Source: a virus
DNA length: 34,706 nt
Strand: one strand, 5' to 3'
IMG/VR virus record: IMGVR_UViG_3300008110_000030
Location: 1 to 34,706 of that record
Made by a program: the position numbers and the translations under genes. The notes beneath the pieces were generated by a model, which was not told where the DNA came from, made no database searches, and saw only the letters and a list, made by a program, of their open reading frames with translations. Every line of letters begins with the position of its first letter. Positions within the stretch are counted from its first letter, which is position 1. Shown here piece after piece: positions 1 through 19,962 of this stretch.

Positions 1-40
1 GTTTAGCAAACTGCTGCCTTAACCACTCGGCCAACCTTCC
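1..40 (-). tRNA. tRNA-Ser(GCU), cut by window edge
   Basis: The 5' half of a minus-strand tRNA: acceptor strand GGAAGGT, a serine/leucine-type D arm (GGCCGAGTGGTTAA), and an anticodon arm with loop TTGCTAA, giving anticodon GCU. The variable arm and 3' half lie outside the window. It is the most downstream member of the transcript that also carries tRNA-Leu(UAG). Confidence 0.85.
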
Positions 41-205
41 ATTAGTTGATAGTACTCACCGTCTATGACAACGTGTCTATTTAGGAGTCCTGCGCTAACA
101 GTTCCAAAGCATCTAACAACAGTTATATCAGACTTCGCGCCATGCCAGCGGATGTCGTGTAGTATATGCGTCCATATACGATACCTGTCAAGTGCTATCA
201 ACTAA
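41..205 (-). ncRNA. inter-tRNA spacer RNA closed by a ~15-17 bp stem
   Basis: This 165-nt spacer sits exactly between the 5' end of tRNA-Ser and the 3' CCA of tRNA-Leu. Its ends are complementary: 41-55 pairs with 192-206 over 15 positions with one mismatch, and two more pairs extend into the tRNA termini (39-40 with 207-208). A weak 60-codon frame starting at TTG crosses it, but it runs into tRNA-Ser and has no ribosome site, so I read the spacer as structured RNA. Function is unknown; a processing stem or a small RNA are both possible. Confidence 0.45.
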
Positions 206-305: not shown

Positions 306-335
306 TTTTAAAGAACAATCGTTAATTGCTTAACG
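306..335 (-). promoter_or_regulatory. rRNA-like leader: GCAA hairpin plus BoxA
   Basis: Immediately after the predicted transcription start (about 335) the minus-strand RNA reads CGTTAA-GCAA-TTAACG, a 6-bp hairpin with a GNRA tetraloop, followed two bases later by TGTTCTTTAAAA (306-317). That 12-mer resembles the BoxA element of bacterial rRNA leaders (E. coli TGCTCTTTAACA). The hairpin-then-BoxA order matches the boxB-boxA order in rrn leaders. An identical BoxA 12-mer with a similar hairpin occurs at 1901-1931. Confidence 0.6.
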
Positions 336-341
336 TGCTAT

Positions 342-370
342 ATTATAGCAAGAGTATTTAACTGTGTCAA
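342..370 (-). promoter_or_regulatory. consensus sigma70 promoter for tRNA-Leu/Ser transcript
   Basis: On the minus strand TTGACA (365-370) is separated by exactly 17 bases from TATAAT (342-347), a perfect consensus match. The predicted start is near 335. It lies between tRNA-Glu and tRNA-Leu, so the tRNA array is served by more than one transcript. Confidence 0.88.
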
Positions 371-465: not shown

Positions 466-618
466 TTAACTTGCTACAATCTTTGGAATATATGGAACTG
501 CTCTTGGTCCACCATACAGTGACTCAAAAAGTTTTTTAGCTTCTTGCGGAGTATCCGCATAGACTCTTTTCTTTTCTTCACCTTGTGGTGTACGCACAGT
601 TGTTTCATACATTGGCAT
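466..618 (-). CDS. small conserved-type phage protein, 50 aa
   Basis: A 50-residue protein beginning MPMYETTVRTPQGEEKKRVY and ending in PKIVAS, lying between tRNA-Asp and tRNA-Glu. The ATG at 618 is chosen because AAGGAGA stands 5 bases upstream; longer frames would run into tRNA-Asp. The Shine-Dalgarno begins on the final A of the tRNA-Asp CCA, so maturation of that tRNA would leave an mRNA starting at its ribosome site. The stop is one base before the 5' end of tRNA-Glu. The middle (ADTPQEAKKLFESLYGG) looks helical. I do not recognise a function; short proteins of this style are common in marine phages. Confidence 0.72.
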   Translation of the reverse strand: MPMYETTVRTPQGEEKKRVYADTPQEAKKLFESLYGGPRAVPYIPKIVAS

Positions 619-629
619 ATTTTTCTCCT

Positions 630-704
630 TGGCGGTCTCAACGAGAATCGAACTCGTCCCTACGGCGTGACAGGCCATTATACTAACCGATATACTATGA
701 GACC
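630..704 (-). tRNA. tRNA-Asp(GUC)
   Basis: 75-nt cloverleaf with encoded CCA. Acceptor GGTCTCA pairs with TGAGACC, discriminator G; the anticodon loop CTGTCAC gives GUC. It lies directly downstream of the giant RNA region in the same direction. Confidence 0.93.
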
Positions 705-779
705 ATTCTGAAACACACTACGACAAATGCTATGCACCCTAACTCTATTTGTCTAGGCTGTGGCAATGTGTTTTAGAAT
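705..779 (-). ncRNA. stem-loop abutting tRNA-Asp 5' end
   Basis: Positions 705-717 pair with 767-779 over 13 positions with one non-Watson-Crick pair, starting on the base next to the tRNA-Asp 5' end. Inside, GACAAAT (722-728) pairs with ATTTGTC a further 18 bases on. It has the same architecture as the spacers at 41-205 and 3470-3555. It may be the 3' domain of the giant RNA or a processing stem that frees tRNA-Asp. Confidence 0.45.
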
Positions 780-833
780 AGTGCTAACGCTGAGATTACA
801 CGTTAGCCATAAGCACCTCTAGCATTATAGTTC

Positions 834-1269
834 GCCTTGCGAGCAAACCTTCTCTAGACATCCACTAGGGTCCTTGCGGATCTCCTAGTCTGCTTACAGC
901 ATCGCCGTTTTTAAAGCCAGGCAGTAGGCTTGTCGTCATGTGCTATTCTGCGGATTCCATTCCGTTGACCTTGCGAGCCATTCAAGTGCGCTAACACCTT
1001 ACGAACCCCCCTCCACAAATTAGTGTCACCTTGCGAGCTTCACTAAACTCAATTAGCTTTCGCCTTGAGTATTAGATACTTTTCACACATGACCGAGGCA
1101 GTCTTTGCTTTTTAATGATAGTTGGATTTGAACCAACTGCCGTCTGTTTAACATACAGATGCTCTACCAAATGAGCTATATCGAACCTACCGCGATGAGC
1201 TGCCTCTGTTGCTCCGTAAACTTTTGATCTACGGAATACAACTCACCACATACCTTTTGCCTCGCGAGC
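834..1269 (-). repeat. four copies of 11-nt motif GCTCGCRAGGY
   Basis: On the minus strand GCTCGC(A/G)AGG(C/T) occurs at 834-844, 968-978, 1028-1038 and 1259-1269. Three copies carry GCAA and one GCGA, a change that keeps the GNRA pattern. Related cores CCGCAAGG occur at 872-879 and 1454-1461. The spacing is irregular, so these look like repeated structural or protein-binding modules within one RNA rather than a tandem repeat. Confidence 0.6.
1114..1185 (-). tRNA. tRNA-Asn(GUU)-like domain inside the giant RNA
   Basis: D arm (GCTC/GAGC with TTGGTA), anticodon arm (TCTGT/ACAGA, loop ATGTTAA, anticodon GUU) and T arm (GTTGG/CCAAC, loop TTCAAAT) are canonical. The acceptor is not: only GATA/TATC (1117-1120 with 1179-1182) pairs, the next three positions are mismatched, and no CCA is encoded. 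Instead a 7-bp helix, GAGGCAG (1095-1101) with CTGCCTC (1200-1206), encloses the domain. A normal tRNA-Asn(GUU) is present at 4504-4581. I read this as a tRNA-shaped module of the large RNA, though a degraded or unusually processed tRNA is possible. Confidence 0.6.
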
Positions 1270-1900
1270 TACTCAGTGATGTTTTGCGATCAATGTAGCA
1301 ACGTTTCACAACGTGCCCCACCAACCACTTACATTGCATACGAGCTCTTAGGAGCGACCCTTCGAACCAATACACTACCCTTTCTCATACCAGCTGACTG
1401 ATTGGTTTCGCATGGAAGTCAGCACCACCTGTTACTTTTCATTGCCCCGTGTTCCTTGCGGCACGTCGAACAATGTTCTTTCCCATACATCAGCTTTGCT
1501 GTTACAACCACCGGTCTTATCAGTGATCGCTTCCTCACGGAAGTGAGCAGGCTTGTTTACATGAACCATTGCTGGCGCTAGTATGTAGGCATTCTAGCTT
1601 TGGGTGTATCGCTACACTTATTCTTTGTAAACGGCAAGCCGCCTACAGGACAATAAACTGCCCTTAATTTATCATATAAAAGTACAACTGGGTATCAGCT
1701 TATGTTGCAAGACCGTCTCTTGCTATTTCCGCTTCTACATTACAGTCCAGTAAACTCCACCGTGCCATACTTGGGTCCCCCCTCAGCTTTCGTGTACGTT
1801 AACCCGAGCTAGTCCGTCGACTAGTTGTACTCTGTTAACGCTACCTAGTGGTACTGGTAACCTTTTGTACTTTTATATGACAAATTGTCATATACCAACT

Positions 1901-1931
1901 TTTTAAAGAACATTTACTATTTGCTTAGTAA
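1901..1931 (-). promoter_or_regulatory. rRNA-like leader: 5' hairpin plus BoxA (second copy)
   Basis: The predicted transcript starts with TTACTA-AGCAAA-TAGTAA (1914-1931), a 6-bp hairpin with GCAA in its loop, then one base later TGTTCTTTAAAA (1901-1912), identical to the BoxA-like 12-mer at 306-317. Distance from the -10 box is within a base or two of the first copy. Such a leader would suit a long untranslated RNA that must resist premature (Rho-type) termination. Confidence 0.6.
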
Positions 1932-1937
1932 GTATCT

Positions 1938-1966
1938 ATTGTAGCAACAATTTGCGACGTTGTCAA
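1938..1966 (-). promoter_or_regulatory. consensus sigma70 promoter for giant RNA, tRNA-Asp, tRNA-Glu
   Basis: TTGACA (1961-1966) and TACAAT (1938-1943) on the minus strand with a 17-base spacer. The start is predicted near 1931 at the base of the leader hairpin. The 16-base palindrome GTTGTATTTTTACAAC lies 20 bases upstream of the -35 box. Confidence 0.86.
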
Positions 1967-4503: not shown

Positions 4504-4581
4504 TGGCTGTCCGACTAGGGATCGAACCTAGCTCATTCTTCGTTAACAGCGAAGCGCCTACACCATGCTTGCTCTCGGACA
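4504..4581 (-). tRNA. tRNA-Asn(GUU)
   Basis: 78 nt with encoded CCA. Acceptor TGTCCGA pairs perfectly with TCGGACA; the anticodon loop CTGTTAA gives GUU. This is the normal asparagine tRNA, in contrast to the acceptor-defective domain at 1114-1185. Confidence 0.93.
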
Positions 4582-4948: not shown

Positions 4949-5060
4949 GAACTAATTTTTCCTCCCACACAAGGGATTCCATCCTAGCCGCCGCCCGTTT
5001 GCCCCATGTTTTAAGTGCGGAGCCAGGACCTCGTTTCCTGTATATTCACACTTTGTACTA

Positions 5061-5234
5061 TTAGTCTACACTAAACGTTGGTGCTTTCGCTAACGCTTCG
5101 TGATACTTTCTAGCACGATCGAACTTATCTTGAATAAGTTTTTGAAGTTGTTCTTTAGACATTTCTCCAAGAACAGCTTCATAAGCCTGTTCAACAACAC
5201 GTTCATTTAATTTTGCGTAATCTATCTTTTCCAT
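5061..5234 (-). CDS. small helical protein, 57 aa
   Basis: A 57-residue frame beginning MEKIDYAKLNERVVEQAYEA and ending APTFSVD. The start is supported by AAAGGAAAA directly upstream of the ATG. Composition is charged and helix-favouring with no Cys, signal or membrane segment. It stands alone between the tRNA-Tyr leader and a strong terminator that faces the same way, so it must be expressed by readthrough or an unseen promoter. Function not recognised; real coding is likely given ribosome site and codon texture. Confidence 0.7.
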   Translation of the reverse strand: MEKIDYAKLNERVVEQAYEAVLGEMSKEQLQKLIQDKFDRARKYHEALAKAPTFSVD

Positions 5235-5249
5235 TTTTCCTTTCCAAAA

Positions 5250-5281
5250 ACAAAAAACCCTAGGGTTTTTAATCCTAGGGT
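5250..5281 (-). terminator. factor-independent terminator
   Basis: Minus-strand RNA ACCCTAGG (5274-5281) pairs with CCTAGGGT (5257-5264) across a 9-base loop, followed by a run of six T. It would end the short transcript from the tandem promoters at 5522-5647 before the 57-aa gene and the tRNA array, unless read through. Confidence 0.75.
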
Positions 5282-5284
5282 CCT

Positions 5285-5515
5285 TGAAGTTTTGAAATGT
5301 TTCTAAGTTGTTACTTAGTCATCCCAGCCCTCCTGGACCCTGGTAATCTCTGATGTGCGATCATATCCTAGACTCATATTAATCGCAGACCAATAGGCTG
5401 GCAGAAAGCCGCCTACCTGGGGTTTGCAATTATGTTGTCTAAAATTCGATTGCGTTTGCATTTTGATTACCGTCTTAACCTTTTGTTTAAAATTTACACA
5501 CACTTTTAAGTGTAT
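5285..5515 (-). ncRNA. candidate small RNA between tandem promoters and terminator
   Basis: Two consensus promoters upstream and a terminator downstream bracket about 230-330 nt. Nested complementary segments are visible: CCAGCC (5324-5329) with GGCTGG (5396-5401), enclosing TGCGAT (5356-5361) with ATCGCA (5382-5387). ACACTTTTAAGTGT near 5502-5515 is palindromic at the 5' end. A weak frame (stop at 5315, GTG at 5503 or ATG at 5461, 48-62 aa) crosses it without a convincing ribosome site, so a short leader peptide cannot be excluded. Confidence 0.45.
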
Positions 5516-5521
5516 GTTCTA

Positions 5522-5550
5522 ATTGTACATTTTATTTAGTCTTTTGTCAA
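5522..5550 (-). promoter_or_regulatory. consensus sigma70 promoter (proximal of tandem pair)
   Basis: TTGACA (5545-5550) and TACAAT (5522-5527) with a 17-base spacer on the minus strand. The inverted repeat TTTGTC-TTTT-GACAAA (5558-5573) lies just upstream. Confidence 0.85.
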
Positions 5551-5618
5551 CCACTCATTTGTCTTTTGACAAAAACATTTATGACAATTAACAATGATTA
5601 CTTCTACAACTTGTCTCT

Positions 5619-5647
5619 ATTGTATAGCACTTACTTGCAGTTGTCAA
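5619..5647 (-). promoter_or_regulatory. consensus sigma70 promoter (distal of tandem pair)
   Basis: TTGACA (5642-5647) and TACAAT (5619-5624) with a 17-base spacer on the minus strand, about 97 bases upstream of the proximal promoter. The GTTGTATTTTTACAAC palindrome lies 11 bases upstream of its -35 box. Confidence 0.86.
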
Positions 5648-5657
5648 GAACTTTTTT

Positions 5658-5673
5658 GTTGTATTTTTACAAC
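5658..5673. repeat. palindrome GTTGTATTTTTACAAC, copy 2
   Basis: Identical to 1986-2001. It sits between the stop codon of the last gene of the radical-SAM block (5675) and the distal promoter. No T-run follows on the minus strand, so it is a poor terminator; a shared operator is an alternative. Confidence 0.55.
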
Positions 5674-5674
5674 A

Positions 5675-6268
5675 CTAGTCGTCTAACAACAAATTGAAGT
5701 CAACTGGGATCGCTAGACGAAATCTGTCATAGTAAGGGGTTACCCAATGATACAGAAAGCAAGGAAAAACTAGTAGGTCACCTGAGTTTGGTTGGTACTC
5801 AATAGACCTAAACATTGGTTGAATTTCTTGTGGATAGCCTCTATTGGCATTCACTCTAGGGTCATCAAAAACTATTGCCCCACCGTCTGCTTGATTGTCT
5901 GCTAATAGATAAAATACTGCTGATATGTGTGATCCAGAATGATTGTGTGTATTCATGTAGTATCCCTTTGAATATCCGGCAATCCAGCCACGAATACTAC
6001 TACCAGGATAATCTTTAATATCTAGTTTAAAAACTTCTTTTAAATATCTTGAAAATGCTGGAATCACCACGTCGTCTTTAAATTTTTGGATAATTTTGGA
6101 ATCAGTATCAAAAATGTTTTCTTGTCGAATATCACTAGGTGGATTTTCTAAATCATACATTGAAAATAACTCATTAATAACATTGCCCAATAATTCTTGA
6201 TCTTTGATTGTATCTTTAATTACAGTCGTAGGCCAAAGAGAATTAATTCCTTCATTTATCAAGATCAA
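5675..6268 (-). CDS. 2OG/Fe(II) oxygenase, TIGR02466/PF13759-like
   Basis: A 197-aa protein with the core of the putative 2OG-Fe(II) oxygenase family often found in marine phages: NTHNHSGSHISAVFYL (about residues 106-121) supplies proximal iron ligands, GGAIVFDDPR follows, LYHWVTPY (about 172-179) supplies the distal His, and RFRLAIP (R184) the 2OG anchor. It is the last gene of the minus-strand block and overlaps its neighbour by 17 bases. It resembles the 10995-11606 product throughout (WPT N-terminus, SHSGS/THNHSGS strand, RGY segment, GDxLxFP), so the two are probably paralogues. Expected chemistry is oxidation coupled to 2OG decarboxylation; substrate unknown. Confidence 0.87.
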   Translation of the reverse strand: MILINEGINSLWPTTVIKDTIKDQELLGNVINELFSMYDLENPPSDIRQENIFDTDSKIIQKFKDDVVIPAFSRYLKEVFKLDIKDYPGSSIRGWIAGYSKGYYMNTHNHSGSHISAVFYLLADNQADGGAIVFDDPRVNANRGYPQEIQPMFRSIEYQPNSGDLLVFPCFLYHWVTPYYDRFRLAIPVDFNLLLDD

Positions 6269-6653
6269 ACTCCTTTAAGAAATACATTTTTATATCTGGG
6301 ACAATGCCAATATCTTCATTAAAATTAAAACCCACTGCGTTCAGTATCTTGTTGTATGTATCCTTATCCTGCTCGTAGGGAACATAATATGGATCATTGC
6401 CATGTAGCAAATCAGGATCATTAAGTGATTCATAGAAATCTTCATTAAAATGCTGATTAAGCCAACGAGCATAGCATATGGCAACTACATAACTTTTAGC
6501 AGGGTAAACCCAGCCTAGTTCGTTGGTTGTAAAATACTTGATAGCATTTTCTAAGATATCATCTTTTATTTCAACCGTGTGTAAACTTAAATCATCATCG
6601 TGATCAGTATTAAGCCTGTGAAATATCTCTTGACGTATTTTCCATTCTTTCAT
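6252..6653 (-). CDS. unknown acidic protein of the radical-SAM block
   Basis: 133 aa, acidic and aromatic-rich, with the segment DPDLLHGNDPYYVPYEQDKD in the middle. No Cys cluster, signal peptide or membrane span is visible. The ATG at 6653 lies inside the 3' end of the radical-SAM gene (44-base overlap) and the 3' end overlaps the oxygenase gene, so it is translationally tied to both. It could be a substrate, carrier or adaptor of the flanking enzymes; I do not recognise a family. Confidence 0.7.
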   Translation of the reverse strand: MKEWKIRQEIFHRLNTDHDDDLSLHTVEIKDDILENAIKYFTTNELGWVYPAKSYVVAICYARWLNQHFNEDFYESLNDPDLLHGNDPYYVPYEQDKDTYNKILNAVGFNFNEDIGIVPDIKMYFLKEFDLDK

Positions 6654-7551
6654 AATATTCTAATAATCCTCTATAGCCGTTACAACTATTATTTAGATCC
6701 TTGACGTATCTATAATGCTCAGTTAGGCAGTGACCTTTAAACGGGCAACTTTGGCATATTGGGCTTAAACTTTTCTTTTCCTTTTCTGCCCATGTGATGT
6801 AATCGTCAAAGCTATCTAATTCTAAAAAATACTCGTTGTCATTAAGATCAAATTCTAAAACAGCAAATTTTCCGTTAGGAGTAATGTACACATGGTCATC
6901 ACTAAAACTGTTGTATATTTTATCTAAACTATCTTGTATATGATATTCATTAATAAACTCAAACTTTTTATCCACTGGACTCTCTAGCCATTTGATAACA
7001 AAGTTTTCAAAATCTCTGTGTGACACACTATGACAATTAGCTTGGTTGGTACTGTATGGTTTGATCTCAACACTGGTAATAGCAGTACACATGTTTAGTT
7101 CATTGATCATTTCATCAACATCAAGTCCAAGAACATCCTTACTGGCAAGTACCAATACTGATAGATTCTTTCTTGACTGCAACATATTATTGAATACCTG
7201 TCTACTCTTCTCCCTAGCAGTAAAATCATAACTAACACTTAGCGAGATGTCATCATCAAAAAACCAGTCGTGTATCATACTATAATTAGTGATAATGTTT
7301 ATGGCACCTGTATAATATTTTTTAATAACACGTTTGAGATCAAAAAACTCTTCACGTTTTAATACACCAATCTCTCCACCATACAAATCAACATGATCAA
7401 TTTTGGTATGTGTGACTATTTCTAACAGTTTTTCTTCTAGTTGTTTAGATGTAATGGTTTTTCTATCTTTAAGCTGATCTTTTGTCAAATAACAGAAGTT
7501 GCAACTAAAATTACAATAATAAGAAGGGTTAATGGATATGTTAATACTCAT
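6610..7551 (-). CDS. radical SAM protein with C-terminal Cys cluster
   Basis: 313 aa. An N-terminal radical-SAM motif, YYCNFSCNFC (Cys 13, 17, 20), would hold the SAM-cleaving 4Fe-4S cluster; LYGGEIGV is the GGE segment that contacts the SAM amino group. The C-terminus holds CQSCPFKGHC and a later SCNGY, a shortened SPASM/twitch-like auxiliary-cluster region. Such enzymes commonly modify peptides. It overlaps the upstream gene by 4 bases (ATGA) and sits beside an unknown acidic protein and a 2OG oxygenase. Substrate unknown. Confidence 0.88.
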   Translation of the reverse strand: MSINISINPSYYCNFSCNFCYLTKDQLKDRKTITSKQLEEKLLEIVTHTKIDHVDLYGGEIGVLKREEFFDLKRVIKKYYTGAINIITNYSMIHDWFFDDDISLSVSYDFTAREKSRQVFNNMLQSRKNLSVLVLASKDVLGLDVDEMINELNMCTAITSVEIKPYSTNQANCHSVSHRDFENFVIKWLESPVDKKFEFINEYHIQDSLDKIYNSFSDDHVYITPNGKFAVLEFDLNDNEYFLELDSFDDYITWAEKEKKSLSPICQSCPFKGHCLTEHYRYVKDLNNSCNGYRGLLEYYERMENTSRDISQA

Positions 7552-8024
7552 GACAAATACTTTTTTAATTTTTTTAAACGGGACGTAGTTCGTTTAATGA
7601 AGTAACTTCTAACAAGCCAAGAATTATTGAAAGGAAAGGTGAATTGATTAGGATTATATACCCAAATCATAACACATTTATAATCTGTATATTGGCGAAG
7701 AAATAATTTATTAATCTCTTCAATGCCAAAATGATCAAAAGAGTGATCTATAGTTGATATAATTCTTAACTGACTTAGATCAAACATTAACTTTTTAGCT
7801 GAAGTTGATGAGTCCACTACCACAACAACATTGGCAACTGGATATTCACCGTGTGTCCCTTGACAACTGGAAATAGTCAAATATCCCAATTCTAATAATA
7901 CCTGCACTGTCTCTTTGATGCCGTCTTCTATTTCATCATAAAAATTAGCAAAATAAGGACTAACAACGATGTTGACACCATCGTCTATTTTGATTGATCC
8001 ATCACTATGTCGTTTATTGTACAT
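7548..8024 (-). CDS. unknown protein with SCQGTHGEY motif
   Basis: 158 aa between two radical-SAM genes, overlapping both. An alpha/beta-looking N-terminal half holds LLELGYLTISSCQGTHGEY and then VANVVVVVDSS; the Ser-Cys-x-Gly-x-His loop after a beta strand recalls small bacterial proteins with a conserved SC(Q/E)GH motif, whose function I cannot name. The C-terminus is basic (KRTTSRLKKLKKYLS). A metal or nucleotide site around Cys and His is possible but inferred. The start overlaps the preceding gene by 11 bases. Confidence 0.72.
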   Translation of the reverse strand: MYNKRHSDGSIKIDDGVNIVVSPYFANFYDEIEDGIKETVQVLLELGYLTISSCQGTHGEYPVANVVVVVDSSTSAKKLMFDLSQLRIISTIDHSFDHFGIEEINKLFLRQYTDYKCVMIWVYNPNQFTFPFNNSWLVRSYFIKRTTSRLKKLKKYLS

Positions 8025-9087
8025 CTTCGTTAATATACTCGGTGGCGAACATTTTATCAGTCATGCCATTGGCTTCTATAATAGAAGGCGCGAGTGCCTT
8101 CATGCGCACACAATGTGACTCTACTAGGTTAAAATCTTTTAGGTCTTTAATAGTTTTGCGACATCCATTACAAATTTCAAACATTGGACAAGTGTAGCAT
8201 GCCTGTTTTAAACTTTGTAATTCAGGCTGTACTTGTAAAGGGAAAACTTTTTTGCCTTTCATCTCTTCATCAAAATTGATTGAGTACAGTCTGTCATCAC
8301 CAAATGATCCGCAACTGTAATAATCCCCACTTGGCTGTAGTGTTCTAATACCAGCATCACATTTACGATTTTGTGGACATGACGTTGCACTGCCTCGTAA
8401 TCGTTGAACCATTTGTTTGGTATTGTATTCCCAATCAGTCAATCCAAGTTCCCAAATCTTAACATAAATTTCGTAAATCTTTGCCAACATATAAGGTTTG
8501 CCTTCTTGGCCCATTACTATGTTTTTAAATTTAACAGGAGGCCCGCTACTGAATGCGTAATTTAATTTACACTCAACATTCATTTTTTTAGCAAGTTCAA
8601 CGTTCTTAATTGCTAGGTGTTCATTTTCTTCTGAAATAACACTAATAAAATCTGGACGATAGCCAACGTGCTCTAACATAGCATCACTTACGGCCCAAAA
8701 GTCTTCCTCACTAAACTCTGTTAGGTCACCTTTTAGTCTTCCTCCACCATATTGAAAACTTGTAGTAATGCCCATGCGTTCGTGATTGAACAACTCTTTC
8801 CACTTGTTAGGGTTCTTATAAAATGGCCAAAGGTTAGATGTAAAACTTATAGTAGCACTAGACTCAATAGATTCTAAATGTTCAATAATTTTCCAATAAT
8901 AACTAGGATCCATCATTAATGGATCGCCACCATTAACAATGATAGTTTTTGTTTCTGGATATCGTTTTAAAAAGGTATAGACATATTCCAAATCTAATTC
9001 TAAAGATTTGTCTTCAGTAATATGAGTACTGCTACAGAACGTGCATTTAAAATTACATCGCTCTGTTGGTTTAATTATTAAATCCAT
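8014..9087 (-). CDS. radical SAM/SPASM protein
   Basis: 357 aa. The radical-SAM motif is ERCNFKCTFC at the extreme N-terminus (Cys 11, 15, 18), followed by VNGGDPLM. The C-terminal third is Cys-rich in the SPASM manner: SCPQNRKCDAG, YYSCGSFGDDR, then CYTCPMFEICNGCRK and a final HCVRM. SPASM proteins carry extra Fe-S clusters and typically act on ribosomally made peptides or proteins. A 97-aa protein lies immediately upstream and could be its partner. Length is typical for the class. Confidence 0.9.
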   Translation of the reverse strand: MDLIIKPTERCNFKCTFCSSTHITEDKSLELDLEYVYTFLKRYPETKTIIVNGGDPLMMDPSYYWKIIEHLESIESSATISFTSNLWPFYKNPNKWKELFNHERMGITTSFQYGGGRLKGDLTEFSEEDFWAVSDAMLEHVGYRPDFISVISEENEHLAIKNVELAKKMNVECKLNYAFSSGPPVKFKNIVMGQEGKPYMLAKIYEIYVKIWELGLTDWEYNTKQMVQRLRGSATSCPQNRKCDAGIRTLQPSGDYYSCGSFGDDRLYSINFDEEMKGKKVFPLQVQPELQSLKQACYTCPMFEICNGCRKTIKDLKDFNLVESHCVRMKALAPSIIEANGMTDKMFATEYINEDVQ

Positions 9088-9088
9088 G

Positions 9089-9382
9089 TTATTTTGACAA
9101 AGGACTGCCTACTTCTAAATTCCCATCGCCTCGTTCTAAACCATTTATTTGACGTATTACATCCATAATTAGATGTTTATACTTTTGTGTAGGACCTTCA
9201 AGTTCTTTAATTTTGGAATCCCAGTAGTCTCTTTTTTCTGGGATCTCCATATCTCGAACACAATTGTTAGCATACACCAAATATTCTTGACAATATATTT
9301 CACGTTGTGCTTCGTACTTTTCTTTTAAAGAAACAAGCTCTTCTGGACTAAGGGTGTCTAAATCTACTCCATGATCAATCAT
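9089..9382 (-). CDS. small helical protein, possible partner or substrate of radical SAM
   Basis: 97 aa, highly helical and charged, with DTLSPEELVSLKEKYEAQ near the N-terminus, two Cys (YCQEY, NNCVR) and a C-terminal GDGNLEVGSPLSK. The start is supported by AGGAG 6 bases upstream and an ATGA overlap with the B12-type radical-SAM gene; its stop is two bases before the next radical-SAM start. The LSPEEL-type helix recalls leader segments of some RiPP precursors, but this is weak. It could be a chaperone-like carrier. No family recognised. Confidence 0.7.
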   Translation of the reverse strand: MIDHGVDLDTLSPEELVSLKEKYEAQREIYCQEYLVYANNCVRDMEIPEKRDYWDSKIKELEGPTQKYKHLIMDVIRQINGLERGDGNLEVGSPLSK

Positions 9383-10995
9383 GTTATTCTCCTAAATAAT
9401 TCTGTGTATATTTCTAAATGATTTCTTTCAATAAACTCTGAAATAACTTCATTTCTTTCTCTACCGTTAATTCTCTTAATATTTCTAGCAGTTGTCTTAC
9501 TATTTAAAATATCATAGATGTCATCATATATTATTTTAAATCCGTTAAGTCCTGTAGAAATATCCCAACACATTTTGGTAAATTTCACTACATCAATATG
9601 TGCTTCAACTGCGTCATAATATTTGCCAATAAAGATATTACCTGCTATATTCATAAAAAACATCTCGCAAGCATCATCTATTGAATAAGAATAACAGTGT
9701 GAAATAGTTTTAAAGTGACTCTGACGATTAGAGTATAGCTCTCCCACTTTTACTTCCAACTCGTCAACATTATCAGTATACACGTTTACTAACTCAATGT
9801 CATATAATTTACAATAATCTGGATCATTGGCTGCACTATCTGGTAACACCATATAATCATAGCGCCAAGTTCCATTGTGTGCTTCTAATGTATAGATAAT
9901 TTCCCATTCGGCATAAAAATCTTCTAAGGTACTGCCAGGCATTCCTCGGATCAGTTCTAAAAAAGTTTTGTAACTGTATTTGTCACATTGTGTTTTGATG
10001 TGCTTACCTAACGCAATCTTGTCAGCAACTGACAAGTCTGTTCTCTTGGCCACTTTCATGGCTTCATCACTAATGCTTTGTATTCCAACATTTGGAATCA
10101 ACACTGAGCGTTGAGATTCATAGGGTTTGACTACATCAAACAATCTGTCAATTAGACGTATACGTTTTTTTAAATCTTTAGTTTTTGCTAGACTAGAATC
10201 AACAATGGCTACTCCATTTTCTTTTGCAAATTTTAATATATTAATGTCTCTGTCTTCAAACACACCAAAATTAGCATCAGCACAAACTACTTCTTTGTAT
10301 CCTGCTTGAGACAATGCTAGTAAATCATCATGTACCACTTCAACATCTTTTTTAATAATTTTTGTACCAATGCCGCCACCCCACTCACAAAATACACATG
10401 CAAATGGACAACCACGTGTGGTCTCGATTATAACATAAGGACGCATGTCATTGTCTTCTGCATATTTTTTAAGTTTTGATAGATAATCAAAATTTTGTCT
10501 GTATGCAGATGTCTTGGGAAATACCCAAGGCTTCTTTTTATAACTTCTTACTTCAAAACTAATATCTTCAATAACAGGCTTTTGATTATTTTTAAACCAG
10601 CTGTCAATGAAATCTTCCATAAACAGTTCGCCTGGACATGTAACCTTGCAAAAATAATCATACATTGGTCGTTTGTGTATTTCTTTCTCGCCAAGATGAG
10701 GACCACCAACTACAGTTATTGTTTTTGGGCTAATTTTTTTAACATACGTTGCAAGTTCATCTACTATATGATAATTCCAAATGTAAGAACTAAACATAAT
10801 GACATCAGCAGTTTTCACTTCTTCATAGATATCTTGAATAGTCTTGTATTTGTTGAATTTATATGGTGGTTCCATCCATTCAACTTGATCTTTATGTTGG
10901 CCCACTTCATCATAGTATGTTTTCATAAACATCCATGTAGCAGGATTTGACATTGAAGAATCAATTTGCGGAGGATTCACATAAGCAATACGCAT
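9379..10995 (-). CDS. B12-binding-type radical SAM enzyme, copy 2
   Basis: 538 aa. The N-terminal ~150 residues (MRIAYVNPPQ..., VIMFSSYIWN, TVVGGPHLG) look like the Rossmann-type cobalamin-binding domain of class B radical-SAM enzymes. The radical-SAM motif ETTRGCPFACVFCEWGGG (Cys 196, 200, 203) follows. Class B members include methyltransferases and other C-C bond-forming or rearranging enzymes. It aligns end to end with the 11603-13234 product, sharing VEW.EPPYK, CEWGGGIG.KIIKK and DEAMKVAKRTD, so the pair arose by duplication. The start overlaps the upstream oxygenase stop (TAATG). Confidence 0.9.
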   Translation of the reverse strand: MRIAYVNPPQIDSSMSNPATWMFMKTYYDEVGQHKDQVEWMEPPYKFNKYKTIQDIYEEVKTADVIMFSSYIWNYHIVDELATYVKKISPKTITVVGGPHLGEKEIHKRPMYDYFCKVTCPGELFMEDFIDSWFKNNQKPVIEDISFEVRSYKKKPWVFPKTSAYRQNFDYLSKLKKYAEDNDMRPYVIIETTRGCPFACVFCEWGGGIGTKIIKKDVEVVHDDLLALSQAGYKEVVCADANFGVFEDRDINILKFAKENGVAIVDSSLAKTKDLKKRIRLIDRLFDVVKPYESQRSVLIPNVGIQSISDEAMKVAKRTDLSVADKIALGKHIKTQCDKYSYKTFLELIRGMPGSTLEDFYAEWEIIYTLEAHNGTWRYDYMVLPDSAANDPDYCKLYDIELVNVYTDNVDELEVKVGELYSNRQSHFKTISHCYSYSIDDACEMFFMNIAGNIFIGKYYDAVEAHIDVVKFTKMCWDISTGLNGFKIIYDDIYDILNSKTTARNIKRINGRERNEVISEFIERNHLEIYTELFRRIT

Positions 10996-11606
10996 TACGA
11001 GTCTCTTACAGTTTTATCTAATACTATATTGTCGCCTAAATATAAATCAATTGGCATAGCAATACGCAGTCTAGATGTGTACCCTTGGACATGATGAAAA
11101 GTGTAGCTGGGAAATATTAGATAATCTCCTGTGCTTGGCATGTGAATCTCAGTATTAAAAAACTTTTGAAAATGATCATCATAGCCTCTATGACTGTTTC
11201 CTCTAGGATCAGTAAACACTATCTCTCCGCCTTGGGCATTATTCTCTGCCATTAGATAATATACTGATCCAATTTGGGATCCGCTATGGCTGTGAGATAC
11301 CATGCCTAGTCCATCTTTGTAACTGGCAATCCAGCTTCTTAGTCTATAGTTAGGATAGTTTTCAAGTGATGTTTCATACACCTTATTCAAATATTCTTCA
11401 AAGTTAGGTATAACAACTTCTTCCCTAAATTTAGTGATAGTTTTATCACTATCATAAATCATATCAACCCAGCCAAGATCGTTTGGGCCTACGTTCAAAT
11501 CATACGTTGAAATAATTTTATCTGCCAAGTCGTTTATTAACGTAGCATTGTCAACATTGCCTACTTGTATAAATGTAGGCCAACAAATGTTTAGGCCCTT
11601 GTTCAT
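10995..11606 (-). CDS. 2OG/Fe(II) oxygenase, TIGR02466/PF13759-like
   Basis: 203 aa, with VSHSHSGSQIGSVYYL for the proximal iron ligands, GGEIVFTDPRGNSHRGY, TGDYLIFPSYTFHHV for the distal His and SRLRIAMP for the 2OG-binding Arg. It is sandwiched between the two B12-type radical-SAM paralogues with ATGA and TAATG overlaps, so the three are co-translated. It is closest in the window to the 5675-6268 oxygenase. Substrate unknown. Confidence 0.88.
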   Translation of the reverse strand: MNKGLNICWPTFIQVGNVDNATLINDLADKIISTYDLNVGPNDLGWVDMIYDSDKTITKFREEVVIPNFEEYLNKVYETSLENYPNYRLRSWIASYKDGLGMVSHSHSGSQIGSVYYLMAENNAQGGEIVFTDPRGNSHRGYDDHFQKFFNTEIHMPSTGDYLIFPSYTFHHVQGYTSRLRIAMPIDLYLGDNIVLDKTVRDS

Positions 11607-13234
11607 TTTATTCTTCCAAATAGTTCATTCATTATGAGCAGTTTGTTACTTGCAACCCATCGTGGAATAGCTTCAGTTCTAACTACCCCATTTATAGTGT
11701 TAATATTTCTAGCTGGGGTGTCTGGATTCAGTATATCTTTTACTTCAGCATATATCTCATCAAAGCCATCTACTGTTTTAAGAATTTCCCAACAGTGTTT
11801 GGCAAACTGTGAAACTGTTACTGAATCTTTAAAAAGATCATACATCTCACGTATCAAATTATTACCTGCAAAATTCATAAAAAACATTTCAGCGACGTCT
11901 TCTCTTGAAAAAGAATAGCTACTAGCAACTGTCTTATAGAATGTTCTACGATTTTTAAATAATCCGCCAGTGTTGGCAATGTCTTGTTCATCTACATTAT
12001 CAGTGTAGACATCGACTAATTCAATAGCATAAATTTCTTGATAAACTGGATCGCTGATCTCACTATCAGGTAATGCCATTAAGTCATACCGCCAACTAGA
12101 CCATGCGCCTAAATCATAAAATAGTTCCCACTCGGCATAAAAATCTTCTAAGGTACTCCCAGGCATGGCCATAATCAGTTCCATGCCTGGATGGTAATCA
12201 TATTTGGCGCACAAGTCACGCATGTACTTGCCTAGTTTAATTTTGTCTGATACTTTCATATCAGTCCGCTTGGCCACTTTCATAGCTTCATCACTAATAC
12301 TTTGTATACTAATGTTAGGAACTATGGCAGCTCTATCTTTTCGTCCAAAAGGCTGTATGATTTCAAAGAAGCTATCAACTAGTCTTTTTCTTCTTTCGTA
12401 ATCTTTTGTTTTAACTTGGCTTATATCAATAAAGGTTAGTCCTGCGTCCTTGGCAAACTTTAGAAGTCCTAAATCACGTTCTTCAAAAACCCCAAAATTA
12501 GCGTCAGCACAGATTGCTTCAGTAAACCCTGCTTCTACAATAGCAACACAATCTCGTTGTGCCCACTCTACTTCTTTTTTAATAATCTTGCCACCAATAC
12601 CACCACCCCACTCACAGTAGGTACAACTAAACGGACAGCCTCTGGTAGTTTCAATAACCATCATCAGTTCCATTTCATTTTCTATACCATAGGCACTGAT
12701 CTTTTTTAGATAGTCTAAATTTTCTTCATACGCACTTGCTAGAGGAAACTCCCAACGCTGTTGTTTAGTAGAGCGCACTTCGTAAGTTATATCACTTGCA
12801 TCAAGTTTATTTTCAATAAACAGATCTAGAACGTCCTTAACAAAGAACTCTCCTGGAAACATAGGACGTAATATATAATCGTACATACTACGTTTGATCC
12901 ACAGTGCAGGATCCTTTGCCCCAATCATTGGACCGCCCAACAAATTTATTACAGACGGGTTCTGTTGTTTAGCGTATTGTGCTATTTGATCAACTAGGTC
13001 ATAATTCCAAACATAACTGCTGAACATTATGATATCAGCATCTTTTATCAGTTCATATATTTCTTCAATGCTTTGGTATTCGTTGTACTTGTAAGGAGGC
13101 TCTAACCACTCTACTTGATCAGAGTATTTTCCATTATGTTGGTAGAAACTCTTGCATAGCATCCATGTGACTGGGTTGATTAAACTCCAGTCGGCATGTG
13201 GCGGATTGATAAACGCTATTTTGATTCTTTTCAT
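11603..13234 (-). CDS. B12-binding-type radical SAM enzyme, copy 1
   Basis: 543 aa. A cobalamin-binding-like N-terminus (IKIAFINPPHADW, DIIMFSSYVWN, NLLGGPMIG) precedes ETTRGCPFSCTYCEWGGG (Cys 200, 204, 207). No DxHxxG is seen, which fits base-off binding in class B enzymes. It is paralogous with 9379-10995. The ATG lies 11 bases after a -10 box (13245-13250), giving an almost leaderless internal transcript. Likely chemistry is radical methylation or a carbon-skeleton change on an unknown substrate. Confidence 0.9.
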   Translation of the reverse strand: MKRIKIAFINPPHADWSLINPVTWMLCKSFYQHNGKYSDQVEWLEPPYKYNEYQSIEEIYELIKDADIIMFSSYVWNYDLVDQIAQYAKQQNPSVINLLGGPMIGAKDPALWIKRSMYDYILRPMFPGEFFVKDVLDLFIENKLDASDITYEVRSTKQQRWEFPLASAYEENLDYLKKISAYGIENEMELMMVIETTRGCPFSCTYCEWGGGIGGKIIKKEVEWAQRDCVAIVEAGFTEAICADANFGVFEERDLGLLKFAKDAGLTFIDISQVKTKDYERRKRLVDSFFEIIQPFGRKDRAAIVPNISIQSISDEAMKVAKRTDMKVSDKIKLGKYMRDLCAKYDYHPGMELIMAMPGSTLEDFYAEWELFYDLGAWSSWRYDLMALPDSEISDPVYQEIYAIELVDVYTDNVDEQDIANTGGLFKNRRTFYKTVASSYSFSREDVAEMFFMNFAGNNLIREMYDLFKDSVTVSQFAKHCWEILKTVDGFDEIYAEVKDILNPDTPARNINTINGVVRTEAIPRWVASNKLLIMNELFGRIK

Positions 13235-13244
13235 AGATTACACT

Positions 13245-13273
13245 ATTATACAACATAAAGTTAACAATTACAA
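13245..13273 (-). promoter_or_regulatory. internal promoter before B12-type radical SAM gene
   Basis: TATAAT (13245-13250) with TTGTAA (13268-13273) 17 bases upstream on the minus strand, in one of the few gaps of the block. The predicted start falls only 4-5 bases before the ATG at 13234, leaving no room for a Shine-Dalgarno. Confidence 0.6.
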
Positions 13274-13783
13274 GCCTTCTACATTATAAGTGAAACTGGC
13301 AAGTCTTCTTGTGATTTTGCTTTTACTGGCTCTGTGAAAAAAGCCAGGAGTTTGATTTAACAACATCAAGTCACCCTTTTTAGGATAGTACGTGTCAATA
13401 TTGCCTTCCCCAGGCCACTTAAATTGCACTTCACCTCCAGTTGCAGGATGCTGATCATCAAAGTAAAATAAGAAGAAGATATTACCACCTTCAAATCCAT
13501 CGTTGTGCCAAATACTGCTGTCAGCATCTACGCCTTCAGCAATAACGTAATTCATAAAAGTATTCTTTGGAAATGCCTGATTAATATATTTTTCAGTTAT
13601 ATATACCTTGGCTGCTTCCATTTGCAACATCACTTCTTTAGGTAAGTCGTCTTTAAAATTATCACGTAATCGTTCTTCATGATAGTGGAATTCTACACTA
13701 TCAATATCAATCATGTTGGCTAATTCTTCTTCTCTAAAATAAGCATACCCTTTGGTAAGTAAATCATTTTTCCAATCTAACAT
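13268..13783 (-). CDS. 2OG/Fe(II) oxygenase, prolyl 4-hydroxylase type
   Basis: 171 aa. A classical HxD...H site: SSIWHNDGFEGGNIFFLFYF carries His and Asp, GGEVQFKWPG follows, PKKGDLMLLNQTPGFFHRAS carries the distal His, and RRLASFTYNV the Arg. It differs from the other oxygenases of the block by using HxD and thus belongs to another branch (P4Hc/PF13640-like). It lies one base downstream of a radical-SAM/SPASM gene, suggesting both act on the same product. Confidence 0.87.
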   Translation of the reverse strand: MLDWKNDLLTKGYAYFREEELANMIDIDSVEFHYHEERLRDNFKDDLPKEVMLQMEAAKVYITEKYINQAFPKNTFMNYVIAEGVDADSSIWHNDGFEGGNIFFLFYFDDQHPATGGEVQFKWPGEGNIDTYYPKKGDLMLLNQTPGFFHRASKSKITRRLASFTYNVEGL

Positions 13784-13784
13784 C

Positions 13785-14807
13785 TTATTTCTCCAGTTTC
13801 ATTTGTACGTATTTAAACGACTTCTTAAAAACACATTCATCTAAATCTCTAGTTAATTCTTTATAATCACTGCTAATGAAACAACTGAACCCACATTTTT
13901 GATAAAATTCGCAAGTAAAGCAGTTGCGTTCTTTCATAAAGTTTTGAATAATAACTGTACCCTCTAAATTAGATGTGACGTTATTTTTCATCAACACACT
14001 TCCTGAGCACCCTTTAGGTGAAGTGTTATCGTACATAATAGTAAAACTACTACCACGTGTACAAGCCATCTTGTTATTAGGAGCAGTACCTAAGAATGAT
14101 TCTACGTTCATAGTCTCAGGATACTTATCAATCAATATTTTATAAAATTCGTATAACTCTGATTCTTTTGGCATCATTACTTTAAGAGCATTGTGTCCAG
14201 GTAATAAATGATCCCATGTCATAGTAAAATTATTATACAAATAATCGTGGTAGTCGTCACCCTTTAAAAGATTGGCAATATTTTGTTTAGTGATTACTAA
14301 ACTGATAAGTTTAACATAGGGTTTAAACAGTTCAATATTTTGTTTAAATATTTCAAATTGTACAGGATTAAATCTACCAGCTAGATCATAACTAACGCTC
14401 ATGGTCAAGTCGTATTTTTGACAAAACTGTATGACTTGGTCCATTCTGTCATTAACTAAATTTGTAACAAAGTTAAAAATTAAAACTTTATCCTTAGGAA
14501 CCTTATTGCGAACTTGCTCTATAAATTCGCTGTAATACTCAATGAACCCTTGATCAATTAGCTCGTCTTGAAATAGTTCTCCACCCATAATGTGAAGATG
14601 AAATTCTTTATTTTTGCTATTTGCAATCCAATTACATATTGGATCAACTTTCTTTAGAATTTCCTCTCGACTCAACCCAACACGACTATTGTGATCCTGT
14701 GGACAGAATACACAACTCATGTTACAGTGTTCAAAGAAATTAACCACAATTTCAGACCAGTCAATTACTTTGTCCTTTATTACGCCGTAAAAAAATTCAT
14801 CACTCAT
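13785..14807 (-). CDS. radical SAM/SPASM protein
   Basis: 340 aa. FFEHCNMSCVFCPQDHNS (Cys 28, 32, 35) is the radical-SAM motif and HIMGGELF the GGE segment. The C-terminal auxiliary-cluster region reads ACTRG, KGCSGSV, RNCFTCEFYQKCGFSC and DECVF. The organisation is that of peptide-modifying SPASM enzymes. It overlaps the upstream HLF-family gene by 4 bases (ATGA) and is followed by a 2OG oxygenase. Confidence 0.9.
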   Translation of the reverse strand: MSDEFFYGVIKDKVIDWSEIVVNFFEHCNMSCVFCPQDHNSRVGLSREEILKKVDPICNWIANSKNKEFHLHIMGGELFQDELIDQGFIEYYSEFIEQVRNKVPKDKVLIFNFVTNLVNDRMDQVIQFCQKYDLTMSVSYDLAGRFNPVQFEIFKQNIELFKPYVKLISLVITKQNIANLLKGDDYHDYLYNNFTMTWDHLLPGHNALKVMMPKESELYEFYKILIDKYPETMNVESFLGTAPNNKMACTRGSSFTIMYDNTSPKGCSGSVLMKNNVTSNLEGTVIIQNFMKERNCFTCEFYQKCGFSCFISSDYKELTRDLDECVFKKSFKYVQMKLEK

Positions 14808-15946
14808 GCGAACACCATTTGTTTTAATCTAGGATCGTTATTATTTTTTAACTCATAAACAAGTTGAAGAATATAATTGTTCCACTTTTGTACGTGTGTT
14901 AGTATATCAAATACAATACTAACATTGTCTTTTTCAAAATCTTTCTTTAGTATGCTGTTTATTTGTTCAGAAGTCATGTTGTCACGATTTTGGATCAGTG
15001 ATCTTAAGGTATCAAAAACAAAATGAGCATGGTTACTTTCAAAATAGTCTTCATCTAGCAGTCTTATTTTGTCATCGATCTGAATATCCTTGAACCAAAA
15101 TTCTTGTAGAAATTTTCCAAGTTCTAATATTTCGTCAATGTGTGCTAAAAAATAAGCACTATCCCTAGTTATAAATTTTAATTCATTATCAAACATCCAA
15201 TATAACTTTGGATGAGCTCTAAGTTTTTCCCTCCAACAATCGTCGTCCCAAGCGATATCTAATTTAAATGCTTCTTTGACATTTGCTTGCATGAAGTACT
15301 TGATAAAATAAAAGTACCATTCACTGACTTCCATTGCTAGTGCTTTTGACAGGACATAGATATATTTGTCTTTAAACACTTCAATATGACTTTCGTCATT
15401 GAAGAAGTTTGCAAGATGCCATTCAATACTAAAGCCTTCAATATGTTGTTTGACCCATTGTTGACGTACTATGTTATCACTCCACGGAGTTAACTGATTA
15501 AATAGCTCAATGAAATCTTTTTTGTTTAGAAACTCTATATCAAGTATGCTAGTCTTATTAAAATCCATGAAGCTACTGTTTAATACTATAGCAGGGAAAT
15601 GTAATTTTGACCTTTGCACTGATGCATTATAACAACAAAATGCCAAGTTAGCATCCATGTTAGGGAATATTGTCTTGATCCAATTTATAAAGACAATGTT
15701 GAATGCATCCATATCAACATAAAAGTTGAGTTTACTTTCATGTTCTAAACTGCATAGCAGTGAATGCCAATCTTTGTAAGCTCCGTTTACTCCCACTAAA
15801 TCTGTATAAGTCGTTGCTTGGTGCTTAATTGGATTTAGTGTAGACTTTTGCGCAACATTGGGGTTTTTACTAATAATGATTCTTTTTTTAGAATTATTAA
15901 CTAGATAGTCTGGGGAAACATATACCTTATTGAACAGATGTAACAT
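14804..15946 (-). CDS. HLF-VY family protein, paralogue 1
   Basis: 380 aa beginning MLHLFNKVYVSPDYLV. It shares with the products of 16488-17471 and 17478-18662 the N-terminal M-x-HLF-x-x-VY, a strand ending in Asp followed by a helix with WIKTIFPN, a SIEWHLANFF segment about the middle, a W-(M/F)-F/FD segment and a final MTSEQINSIL-like helix. No enzymatic motif, Cys cluster or signal peptide is visible. I know no family for it. Being interleaved with oxygenase and radical-SAM genes, the paralogues could be substrates, scaffolds or an uncharacterised enzyme type. Confidence 0.75.
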   Translation of the reverse strand: MLHLFNKVYVSPDYLVNNSKKRIIISKNPNVAQKSTLNPIKHQATTYTDLVGVNGAYKDWHSLLCSLEHESKLNFYVDMDAFNIVFINWIKTIFPNMDANLAFCCYNASVQRSKLHFPAIVLNSSFMDFNKTSILDIEFLNKKDFIELFNQLTPWSDNIVRQQWVKQHIEGFSIEWHLANFFNDESHIEVFKDKYIYVLSKALAMEVSEWYFYFIKYFMQANVKEAFKLDIAWDDDCWREKLRAHPKLYWMFDNELKFITRDSAYFLAHIDEILELGKFLQEFWFKDIQIDDKIRLLDEDYFESNHAHFVFDTLRSLIQNRDNMTSEQINSILKKDFEKDNVSIVFDILTHVQKWNNYILQLVYELKNNNDPRLKQMVFA

Positions 15947-16491
15947 TATGTGATCCTATTATATTGGTCTACATAAGATTCGTAACCATCAGTGTTAATA
16001 TACAGATCAAAAGGAAGACATAGTCTTGTTCCTGGACCTTGGTGTGTCAAAACTTCGTGTCCAAGATAACTTGGAAAAATTAAAAGATCGCCTGGCTCTG
16101 GGTGTATTTCAACTGGACTAAACCAGCTTTGATTAATATTGATCTGTTGTGTGGGCGGATGTAAAACAATCTCGCCTCCAGATGCCGTTTGGAGATAAAA
16201 TATCCCTGACAACCAGCCCCAAGGATGCCAATGCCATCGAGCACTATTGCCTGGTTCAATATACAACATGTTGCCGTTTAATTTTACTTCTGCATTTTTT
16301 GGCAACTCTTCCTTCCAGGTTTCAGAAACAGCACTCATGATTTTCTCATAAAGTTTTTCAGTAAACTCATCAGTGTCTTTGAACCATTTATTTTCATGCT
16401 GGCACACAACATTACTTTGAAACATAAGATTTACTAAATCTTCATTCCCGTGTTCATAGTGTATTTTGGTTGGCCAAATTTCTTTTTTCAT
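15946..16491 (-). CDS. 2OG/Fe(II) oxygenase, TIGR02466/PF13759-like
   Basis: 181 aa. ARWHWHPWGWLSGIFYL supplies the proximal ligands, GGEIVLHPP follows, PEPGDLLIFPSYLGHEVL holds the distal His and GTRLCLPFDLY the Arg. The N-terminus KKEIWPTKI shows the WPT start typical of the family. It overlaps HLF-family genes on both sides (ATGA with the upstream one, TAATG with the downstream one), so it is embedded in that gene set. Confidence 0.88.
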   Translation of the reverse strand: MKKEIWPTKIHYEHGNEDLVNLMFQSNVVCQHENKWFKDTDEFTEKLYEKIMSAVSETWKEELPKNAEVKLNGNMLYIEPGNSARWHWHPWGWLSGIFYLQTASGGEIVLHPPTQQININQSWFSPVEIHPEPGDLLIFPSYLGHEVLTHQGPGTRLCLPFDLYINTDGYESYVDQYNRIT

Positions 16492-17471
16492 TTTCTCAAT
16501 ACGTAATGCTGTAGGCTTACGTTTCCTAAGATAGTATTTACTGATATATCTTGATAGGTTTCTAAAATATGGTCCAAGAAGTAGACATTAAAATATTTTC
16601 TACCAAAATCTGAAAATGATGTTTGTCCAAGATTATGCAAATTGTATTGGATAATCGCATTTAAGTCTTCATCACTAATACTATCTTTTCTAATAATTGG
16701 TATCAAATTTAATTTAGTAACACACGGGTTCTCAGAATTAGAATGCACCCAACTGCCTAAAAAGTTAGAGCAATTTTCTACAAAATTAGATGAAAATTTC
16801 TCGTCATCAAAACATTGCCAGCTGAAAGACCCAGTTTTGAATACTTCAAAAAACCATGCTAGATTTGGATCACATATTAAATTCTCTAAATTTTTATATG
16901 TGTATTTTTTTGTTTTCAACAATTGTTGCAATTTTGTCTTAGCAGAATTAAGTAAAATTGTGTCACGTGTTTCTTCTATAAAGTTTTGCATATCCTTTTT
17001 TACAAGTTTATGCAATACGTTTTTTAATTCTTCTTTAAATGATTGGTTATAAAGATAGGAAGTTAATAAAAATTCAAAACTGATATCTTCTAAAAAATCA
17101 CAAGTATCCAATTTTTCTACACTGTCATATATGATGTTGTAGTCATCTTCTTTTATTACAGTGTCTTTTAATACATCAACACTCTTATCTAAACCAATTA
17201 ATTGATTTTCTTTTAATAGATGACATTTTAGAATCGTATAACATGATTCTGAAGTGGGAAATGCAAAAACTGACTTGTGCCATTGTGCTACAAGTTTAAT
17301 GAACAAAGTTTTGTCAGCAACAATGACAAGTTTTTTGTTATTCTTGATACAATTTAATTTAGCAATTAGTAAAAGTTCAAGCAGATCGATATCTTCAGTT
17401 GCAGTAATACTATTGAAATCTGAAGATGGATATTTAAAATCTATATAAACTTTCTTAAAAAGATGTAGCAT
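16488..17471 (-). CDS. HLF-VY family protein, paralogue 2
   Basis: 327 aa beginning MLHLFKKVYIDFKY. Family features: strand LVIVADKTLF followed by WHKSVFAFP, then SFEFLLTSYLYN, WFFEVFKTG and SISDEDLNAIIQYNL. It is the shortest paralogue, Lys- and Phe-rich and low in GC. The ATG at 17471 lies 7 bases after the stop of paralogue 3. No function recognised. Confidence 0.75.
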   Translation of the reverse strand: MLHLFKKVYIDFKYPSSDFNSITATEDIDLLELLLIAKLNCIKNNKKLVIVADKTLFIKLVAQWHKSVFAFPTSESCYTILKCHLLKENQLIGLDKSVDVLKDTVIKEDDYNIIYDSVEKLDTCDFLEDISFEFLLTSYLYNQSFKEELKNVLHKLVKKDMQNFIEETRDTILLNSAKTKLQQLLKTKKYTYKNLENLICDPNLAWFFEVFKTGSFSWQCFDDEKFSSNFVENCSNFLGSWVHSNSENPCVTKLNLIPIIRKDSISDEDLNAIIQYNLHNLGQTSFSDFGRKYFNVYFLDHILETYQDISVNTILGNVSLQHYVLRK

Positions 17472-17477
17472 TGCATG

Positions 17478-19961: not shown

Positions 19962-19962
19962 G

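Follow-up and report, generated by a model that had tools for sequence, protein, structure and literature searches.

The DNA analysed here (the window) is a 34,706-nt stretch that opens a virus record 214,617 bases long (IMG/VR IMGVR_UViG_3300008110_000030). ARAGORN predicts 20 tRNAs in it, all on the minus strand, and the interval 780–1931 lies inside this tRNA array. The initial annotation had described the 1.15 kb as one giant noncoding RNA of the phage GOLLD and ROOL group, possibly a new class, devoid of open reading frames of at least 60 codons on either strand. Such frames are indeed absent, the longest being 59 aa, and the RNA is real; what had been missed is that its gene lies on the minus strand. 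The folding z-score of 1250–1931, compared to shuffled sequences, is –8.4 for the minus strand and –2.4 for the plus strand. The consensus promoter reported at the start of the region is also confirmed, at 1966–1938 of the minus strand, hence the RNA begins at the high-coordinate end and runs from high to low coordinates. The interval consists of structured RNA, as proposed, but GOLLD occupies only ~877 nt of it, and three things are found instead of one: a GOLLD RNA, a tRNA-like element in the GOLLD linker, and a second structured RNA upstream (Table 1). Two checks had been suggested, and neither refutes the RNA reading: covariation is strong in the GOLLD 5′ domain, in the linker element and in the second RNA, and a hidden or split protein is rejected, as no 60-codon frame exists and stem covariation accounts for the conservation.

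Elsewhere in the window, a gene cluster at 5675–21473 (minus strand) encodes several radical SAM proteins, some of them B12-binding, and 2OG-Fe(II) oxygenase proteins. A small open reading frame (MPMYETTVRTPQGEEKKRVYADTPQEAKKLFESLYGG...) with a Shine–Dalgarno-like AAGGAG is located at 466–618 (minus strand), between tRNA-Glu and tRNA-Asp.

Table 1. Features of the GOLLD locus, in the direction of transcription (window coordinates).
Feature	Coordinates	Strand	Evidence and remarks
Promoter TTGACA-N17-TACAAT, extended –10	1938..1966	-	11 of 12 positions of the sigma-70-like consensus; best found
boxA-like antitermination element GTTCTTTAAAA	1901..1911	-	Fits GYTCTTTAANA (PMC5725501); begins 25 nt after the –10 box
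Closing helix of the second RNA, 5′ arm	1854..1886	-	33-nt inverted repeat; pairing retained via double changes (helix 1)
Second structured RNA (R1), ~213 nt	1670..1882	-	No Rfam family; R1 model 217 bits (window in seed)
Closing helix of the second RNA, 3′ arm	1666..1698	-	33-nt inverted repeat, 85% complementary; ends one base before the GOLLD start
GOLLD 5′ domain	1250..1665	-	Conserved in ~60 loci; pairing and double changes
Closing helix of the linker, 5′ arm GAGGCAG	1200..1206	-	7 bp
tRNA-like element in the GOLLD linker, anticodon GUU	1113..1185	-	ARAGORN tRNA-Asn; Rfam tRNA, positions 4–67 only
Closing helix of the linker, 3′ arm CUGCCUC	1095..1101	-	7 bp; 99.7% of cells paired in 41 relatives
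GOLLD 3′ domain	787..1249	-	Rfam RF02032 positions 1–416, 213.5 bits (gathering 150), E 3e-59
Downstream stem, 5′ arm	758..782	-	Begins 6 nt past the GOLLD 3′ end; score 38 vs. shuffled maximum 22.5
Downstream stem, 3′ arm	702..726	-	Abuts tRNA-Asp (704–630)

A GOLLD RNA is encoded in this part of a large phage's tRNA array. GOLLD RNA, reportedly described by Weinberg et al. in 2009, is identified here by the Rfam covariance model RF02032, matched over its full length, which bears out the proposed group membership. ROOL, a giant cage-forming phage RNA that is likewise found near tRNAs (PMC12286853), has no match in the window at the gathering score, nor in 700–2060 at E up to 1, and no other Rfam family was found as the identity of the giant RNA. 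The suggestion of a new class thus does not hold for the whole, but part of it, 1882–1670, is a separate structured RNA absent from Rfam. The Rfam model covers the 3′ domain only; the 5′ domain (1665–1250), absent from the model, is common to relatives and adds ~416 nt ahead of the modeled part, so that the GOLLD extends over ~1665–789, or 877 nt. One GOLLD copy is present in the 214,617-base record. The GCAA tetraloop listed in the initial annotation (874–877) is a loop on the minus strand.

The 3′ domain, the setting in a phage tRNA array, and the place of the linker are the same as in known GOLLDs. In the GOLLD solved by cryo-EM (env-38), the 5′ domain comprises residues 1–420 and the linker is a disordered stretch of 42 nt (PMC12286853). 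The window RNA has a similarly separate and less conserved 5′ domain, likened to that of env-38 by size (~416 and ~420 nt), but its linker holds a tRNA-like element lacking the acceptor end.

Relatives were collected from viral contigs by several scans. At least 120 stretches were found with a 3′-end pattern, and 91 (GOLLDs and chance matches together) with a pattern built on the sequence flanking the linker on its 5′ side rather than on the linker content, divergent members being missed by such pattern scans; a profile of the upstream part of the window matched 78 stretches, in which 5′ domains are conserved. A pattern scan of bacterial genomes for this clade yielded only chance matches among those listed, none with a convincing GOLLD context. 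Matches in cultured phages are weak, the best one being to Sinorhizobium phage Phosso. The region 5001–5696 of this cultured jumbo phage (PV764938.1, our locus L122) is GOLLD-like and unannotated, and the phage is a possible laboratory model.

Twenty-nine non-redundant 5′ domains were aligned, yielding a consensus of 110 pairs, 73 of them with double changes, and 98.9% of cells paired, figures that are favoured by the derivation of the structure from the same alignment. None of 500 shuffled alignments was as good, although such counts are not probabilities, as the aligned sequences are related, and slid controls were all at or near 41% or below. The GCGA tetraloop at 1609–1612, also noted initially, is a minus-strand loop, and all five stem pairs of its hairpin (helix 5) are supported by covariation. 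The predicted 7-bp loop–tail pseudoknot (1584–1590/1641–1647) fared worse and was rejected: just three to six of its seven pairs are left in 16 of the 29 relatives, and a competing local hairpin has all nine pairs in 22 of 29.

The 22-bp helix described initially (1666–1687/1865–1886) exists, with its G–U pair forming on the minus strand only, and extends to 33-nt arms, but it belongs to a separate RNA and not to GOLLD, as in three loci (L053, L137, L186) the GOLLD core follows the promoter at a distance of 8 nt, without anything in between. We regard the RNA closed by this helix (R1) as a separate, uncatalogued structured RNA. Its homologues were found first in L143 and L185 and then in further viral contigs, the loci being the window, L143, L185, L342, L343, L345–L355, L192, L172, and L116. 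The clear homologues are situated in tRNA arrays. Their usual neighbours on the two sides are tRNA-Leu(UAG) and tRNA-Tyr or tRNA-Glu and tRNA-Leu, and most of them start directly at the CCA end of a tRNA. An alignment of 13 sequences not fitted to the structure (A3) has 62 pairs, 21 with double changes, and 97.4% of cells paired, a result matched by none of 500 shuffles. The covariance model recovered its seeds as well as three unseeded members, L192 (88 bits), L172 (67 bits), and L116 (49 bits); with these added, double changes are observed in 42 of the 62 pairs, the alignment in this case being fitted to the model. No Rfam match to this RNA was found in the window (E up to 1) or in four homologue loci (E up to 0.5). 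R1 can be considered a candidate family, supported by covariation and already provided with a covariance model.

These data bear on the reading of 780–1931 as a single new class of giant RNA spanning the whole 1.15 kb. One promoter precedes the interval and the minus strand is structured without a break, as this reading would have it, but the RF02032 match speaks against it, and the two parts occur independently. The GOLLD 5′ domain stands directly at the promoter, the upstream part missing, in the three loci mentioned above, and the upstream part is found by itself in tRNA arrays: of 18 records with R1, Rfam detects a GOLLD in six, and R1 is present without a GOLLD match in a 285-kb record. 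A single class is hence practically untenable.

Promoters comparable to that of the window, identified, like the boxA elements, as consensus matches, are present upstream of most GOLLDs of the clade. The strict boxA consensus follows 7 of 12 GOLLD promoters, compared to 0.0014 expected by chance. This consensus, GYTCTTTAANA, is the one published for gamma-proteobacteria (PMC5725501). In 25 non-redundant upstream regions, the position of the promoter and the presence of a stem go together. All 19 loci whose promoter lies 60 nt or more upstream show a helix of 18–30 pairs that ends 1–12 nt before the GOLLD core, in one of them (L162) only marginally above its own shuffles, and 13 of these 19 have a boxA-like element 24–34 nt past the –10 box; no helix is present in the five loci with an adjacent promoter or in the one without a promoter call. 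The helix sequences differ between lineages. On the other side, a stem starts 3–8 nt past the GOLLD 3′ end in 18 of 27 non-redundant loci, and in several others (L006, L179, L184) terminator-like hairpins are found instead. Upstream and downstream helices were scored by a simple scheme with eight shuffles each.

This arrangement, with its strong promoter and perfect boxA, resembles the leader of rRNA operons, in which the mature RNA is flanked by boxA and by long helices that RNase III cleaves (PMC10250234, PMC5725501). A promoter, a boxA, and long helices beside a large structured RNA are common to both, and the stems here, like those processed by RNase III, reach ~20 bp or more and lie beside the ends of the structured RNA; the difference is that one leader–trailer helix encloses rRNA, while here each side has a separate stem. 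The available parts of the GOLLD literature do not mention a boxA leader or long flanking stems. As, in the window, the upstream stem also closes an RNA seen in arrays without GOLLD, processing of the GOLLD 5′ end is not its sole possible role.

The tRNA-like element inside the giant RNA had escaped the initial annotation. In the window, its acceptor positions 1–3 are unpaired and CCA is absent. The tRNA-like fold is found in 41 of 44 non-redundant linkers of the clade, the three exceptions being L126, L169, and L134. Below, two overlapping but not identical sets of 41 are used, that is, distinct elements called by ARAGORN and non-redundant aligned linkers. Among the ARAGORN-called elements, 3′ CCA is encoded in none of 41, compared to 745 of 780 (96%) tRNAs in the arrays at those loci. 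Pairs 1–3 of the acceptor stem form in these elements at frequencies of 0.49, 0.51, and 0.61, close to those in shuffled sequences (0.48, 0.55, and 0.49), with all three positions still pairable in five of 41, while positions 4–7 pair at 0.90–0.95, and the 780 array tRNAs at 0.93–0.98 throughout; as ARAGORN favours good tRNAs, the comparison of acceptors and CCA is conservative.

The rest of the molecule is maintained. In the 41 aligned linkers, 98.8% of cells in the closing helix and in the four stems that remain are paired, with 205 double-change cells vs. 56 in shuffled alignments, a level reached by none of 500 shuffles. The D, anticodon, and T arms are present together with the elbow nucleotides: A14, G19, U54, U55, C56, and C61 are found in 41 of 41 elements, G18 and A58 in 40, U8 in 39, and the U33/A37 signature of the anticodon loop is retained almost perfectly. 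The anticodon itself varies, position 34 being G in 16 elements, U in 16, C in seven, and A in two, and the types include Asn, Lys, Arg, Ile, Thr, Trp, Gly, and stop. An NUU anticodon is found in 25 of 41 ARAGORN-called elements; this majority may reflect mere ancestry, or some function of the anticodon could be involved. For 34 of 41 elements the nearest relative is another linker element, often with a different anticodon. Three elements carry stop anticodons, UUA or CUA (L024, 1065–1139; L027, 10652–10726; L129, ~6487–6570). In L134 (4739–4878, plus strand) the tRNA halves are permuted, with a T arm and CTCCCCC-ACCA followed by GAGGGGG and a D-arm-like part; the CTCCCCC and GAGGGGG segments pair as a 7-bp acceptor. 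GOLLDs outside the clade, few of which could be parsed, have short AU-rich linkers without a tRNA; together with the three clade linkers lacking the normal fold, they indicate that a GOLLD does not in itself require the mimic.

Thus, the linker element is neither a tRNA nor simply a decaying one, but a conserved mimic that retains the elbow and the D, anticodon, and T arms, whereas CCA and the outer part of the acceptor stem are gone. It is classified as a tRNA by both ARAGORN and Rfam, and phage tRNAs are mentioned as sometimes present in the GOLLD linker (PMC12286853), as expected if a genuine tRNA gene were nested in GOLLD, excised, and used in translation. We consider this very improbable and reject it on the acceptor stem and CCA, given the absence of CCA from all 41 elements next to array tRNAs that nearly always encode it and the random pairing of positions 1–3; moreover, no CCA-adding enzyme was found in the phage record, the array already has a tRNA-Asn(GUU) at 4504–4581, and the degenerate pseudo-tRNA predicted inside a mycobacterial GOLLD could not be detected as an RNA of its own (PMC6582537). 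The name given to the latter would rather suggest a decaying, functionless pseudogene, and the missing acceptor end and variable anticodon are compatible with it. Yet decay would break all stems alike, and the stems other than the outer acceptor, with their closing helix, are almost completely paired and rich in double changes over 41 divergent sequences, so we assign this explanation a very low probability as well. The mycobacterial case is a report of a single pseudogene, whereas here the element is kept with covariation in 41 phage sequences, its acceptor end lost. Hence, for linkers of this type, the reading as holders of phage tRNAs is corrected.

The main rival to capture of a factor by the mimic is a passive structured filler, a compact nuclease-resistant fold derived from an inserted tRNA that binds no ligand, with selection acting only on its shape and on the missing processing signals. 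Loss of CCA and of the outer acceptor fits selection against excision, AU-rich linkers suffice in other GOLLDs, and anticodon position 34 drifts; however, the elbow tertiary nucleotides and the U33/A37 signature are retained beyond the needs of a filler, which we consider possible but rather doubtful. Capture of a tRNA-binding factor is the reading we favour, with about an even chance of being correct. A tRNA-imitating module within a larger RNA is also present in YrlA and other bacterial Y RNAs (according to a title cited in PMC9569102); YrlA has no match in the window and its context is unrelated.

In the solved env-38 structure, 14 chains form a cage with the linkers pointing inward (PMC12286853). 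By analogy, GOLLD chains of this clade would assemble into a similar cage, and its interior would then be lined with tRNA mimics. Without CCA and the outer acceptor pairs, these mimics could not be aminoacylated. RNase P and RNase Z rely, in excising tRNAs, on features that are missing here, so the mimics would probably resist cutting and the linker would stay intact. The mimic would most likely act as a sponge for a host factor or enzyme that binds tRNAs, capturing it in the cage interior. Evidence pointing directly to one captured target was not found; among phage genes of tRNA repair, which would support a role against nucleases, neither RtcB nor a CCA-adding enzyme was found. The solved cage is empty except for the linker; for a large clade with a selected mimic as the linker, the question of what GOLLD cages do turns into a test of what binds tRNA-shaped RNA inside the cage.

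As for synthesis, the boxA would recruit Nus factors and thus allow for completion of the long untranslated transcript, and processing of the long stems to either side would release GOLLD from the tRNA transcript with defined ends, as in pre-rRNA. Cage formation, the function of the mimic, and stem cleavage are inferred for this RNA. Tentatively, one may combine these elements into cages of the clade in which selected, inward-facing, unchargeable mimics trap a host factor, e.g., an anticodon nuclease or a modification enzyme, with rRNA-like boxA and stems for making and trimming the RNA, and with R1 in the same arrays. The boxA leader and the flanking stems suggest that the virus uses the host rRNA machinery to make and trim a long untranslated RNA.

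A second promoter (TTGACA–TATAAT) followed by a perfect boxA is located at 308–370 (minus strand), ahead of the tRNA-Leu at 206–289. Directly after this tRNA-Leu, a region at ~38–205 (minus strand) is closed by the stem CCATTAGTTGATAG.../...CTATCAACTAATGG, which resembles the stem upstream of GOLLD in L096 and L106, and the interior of the region looks different.
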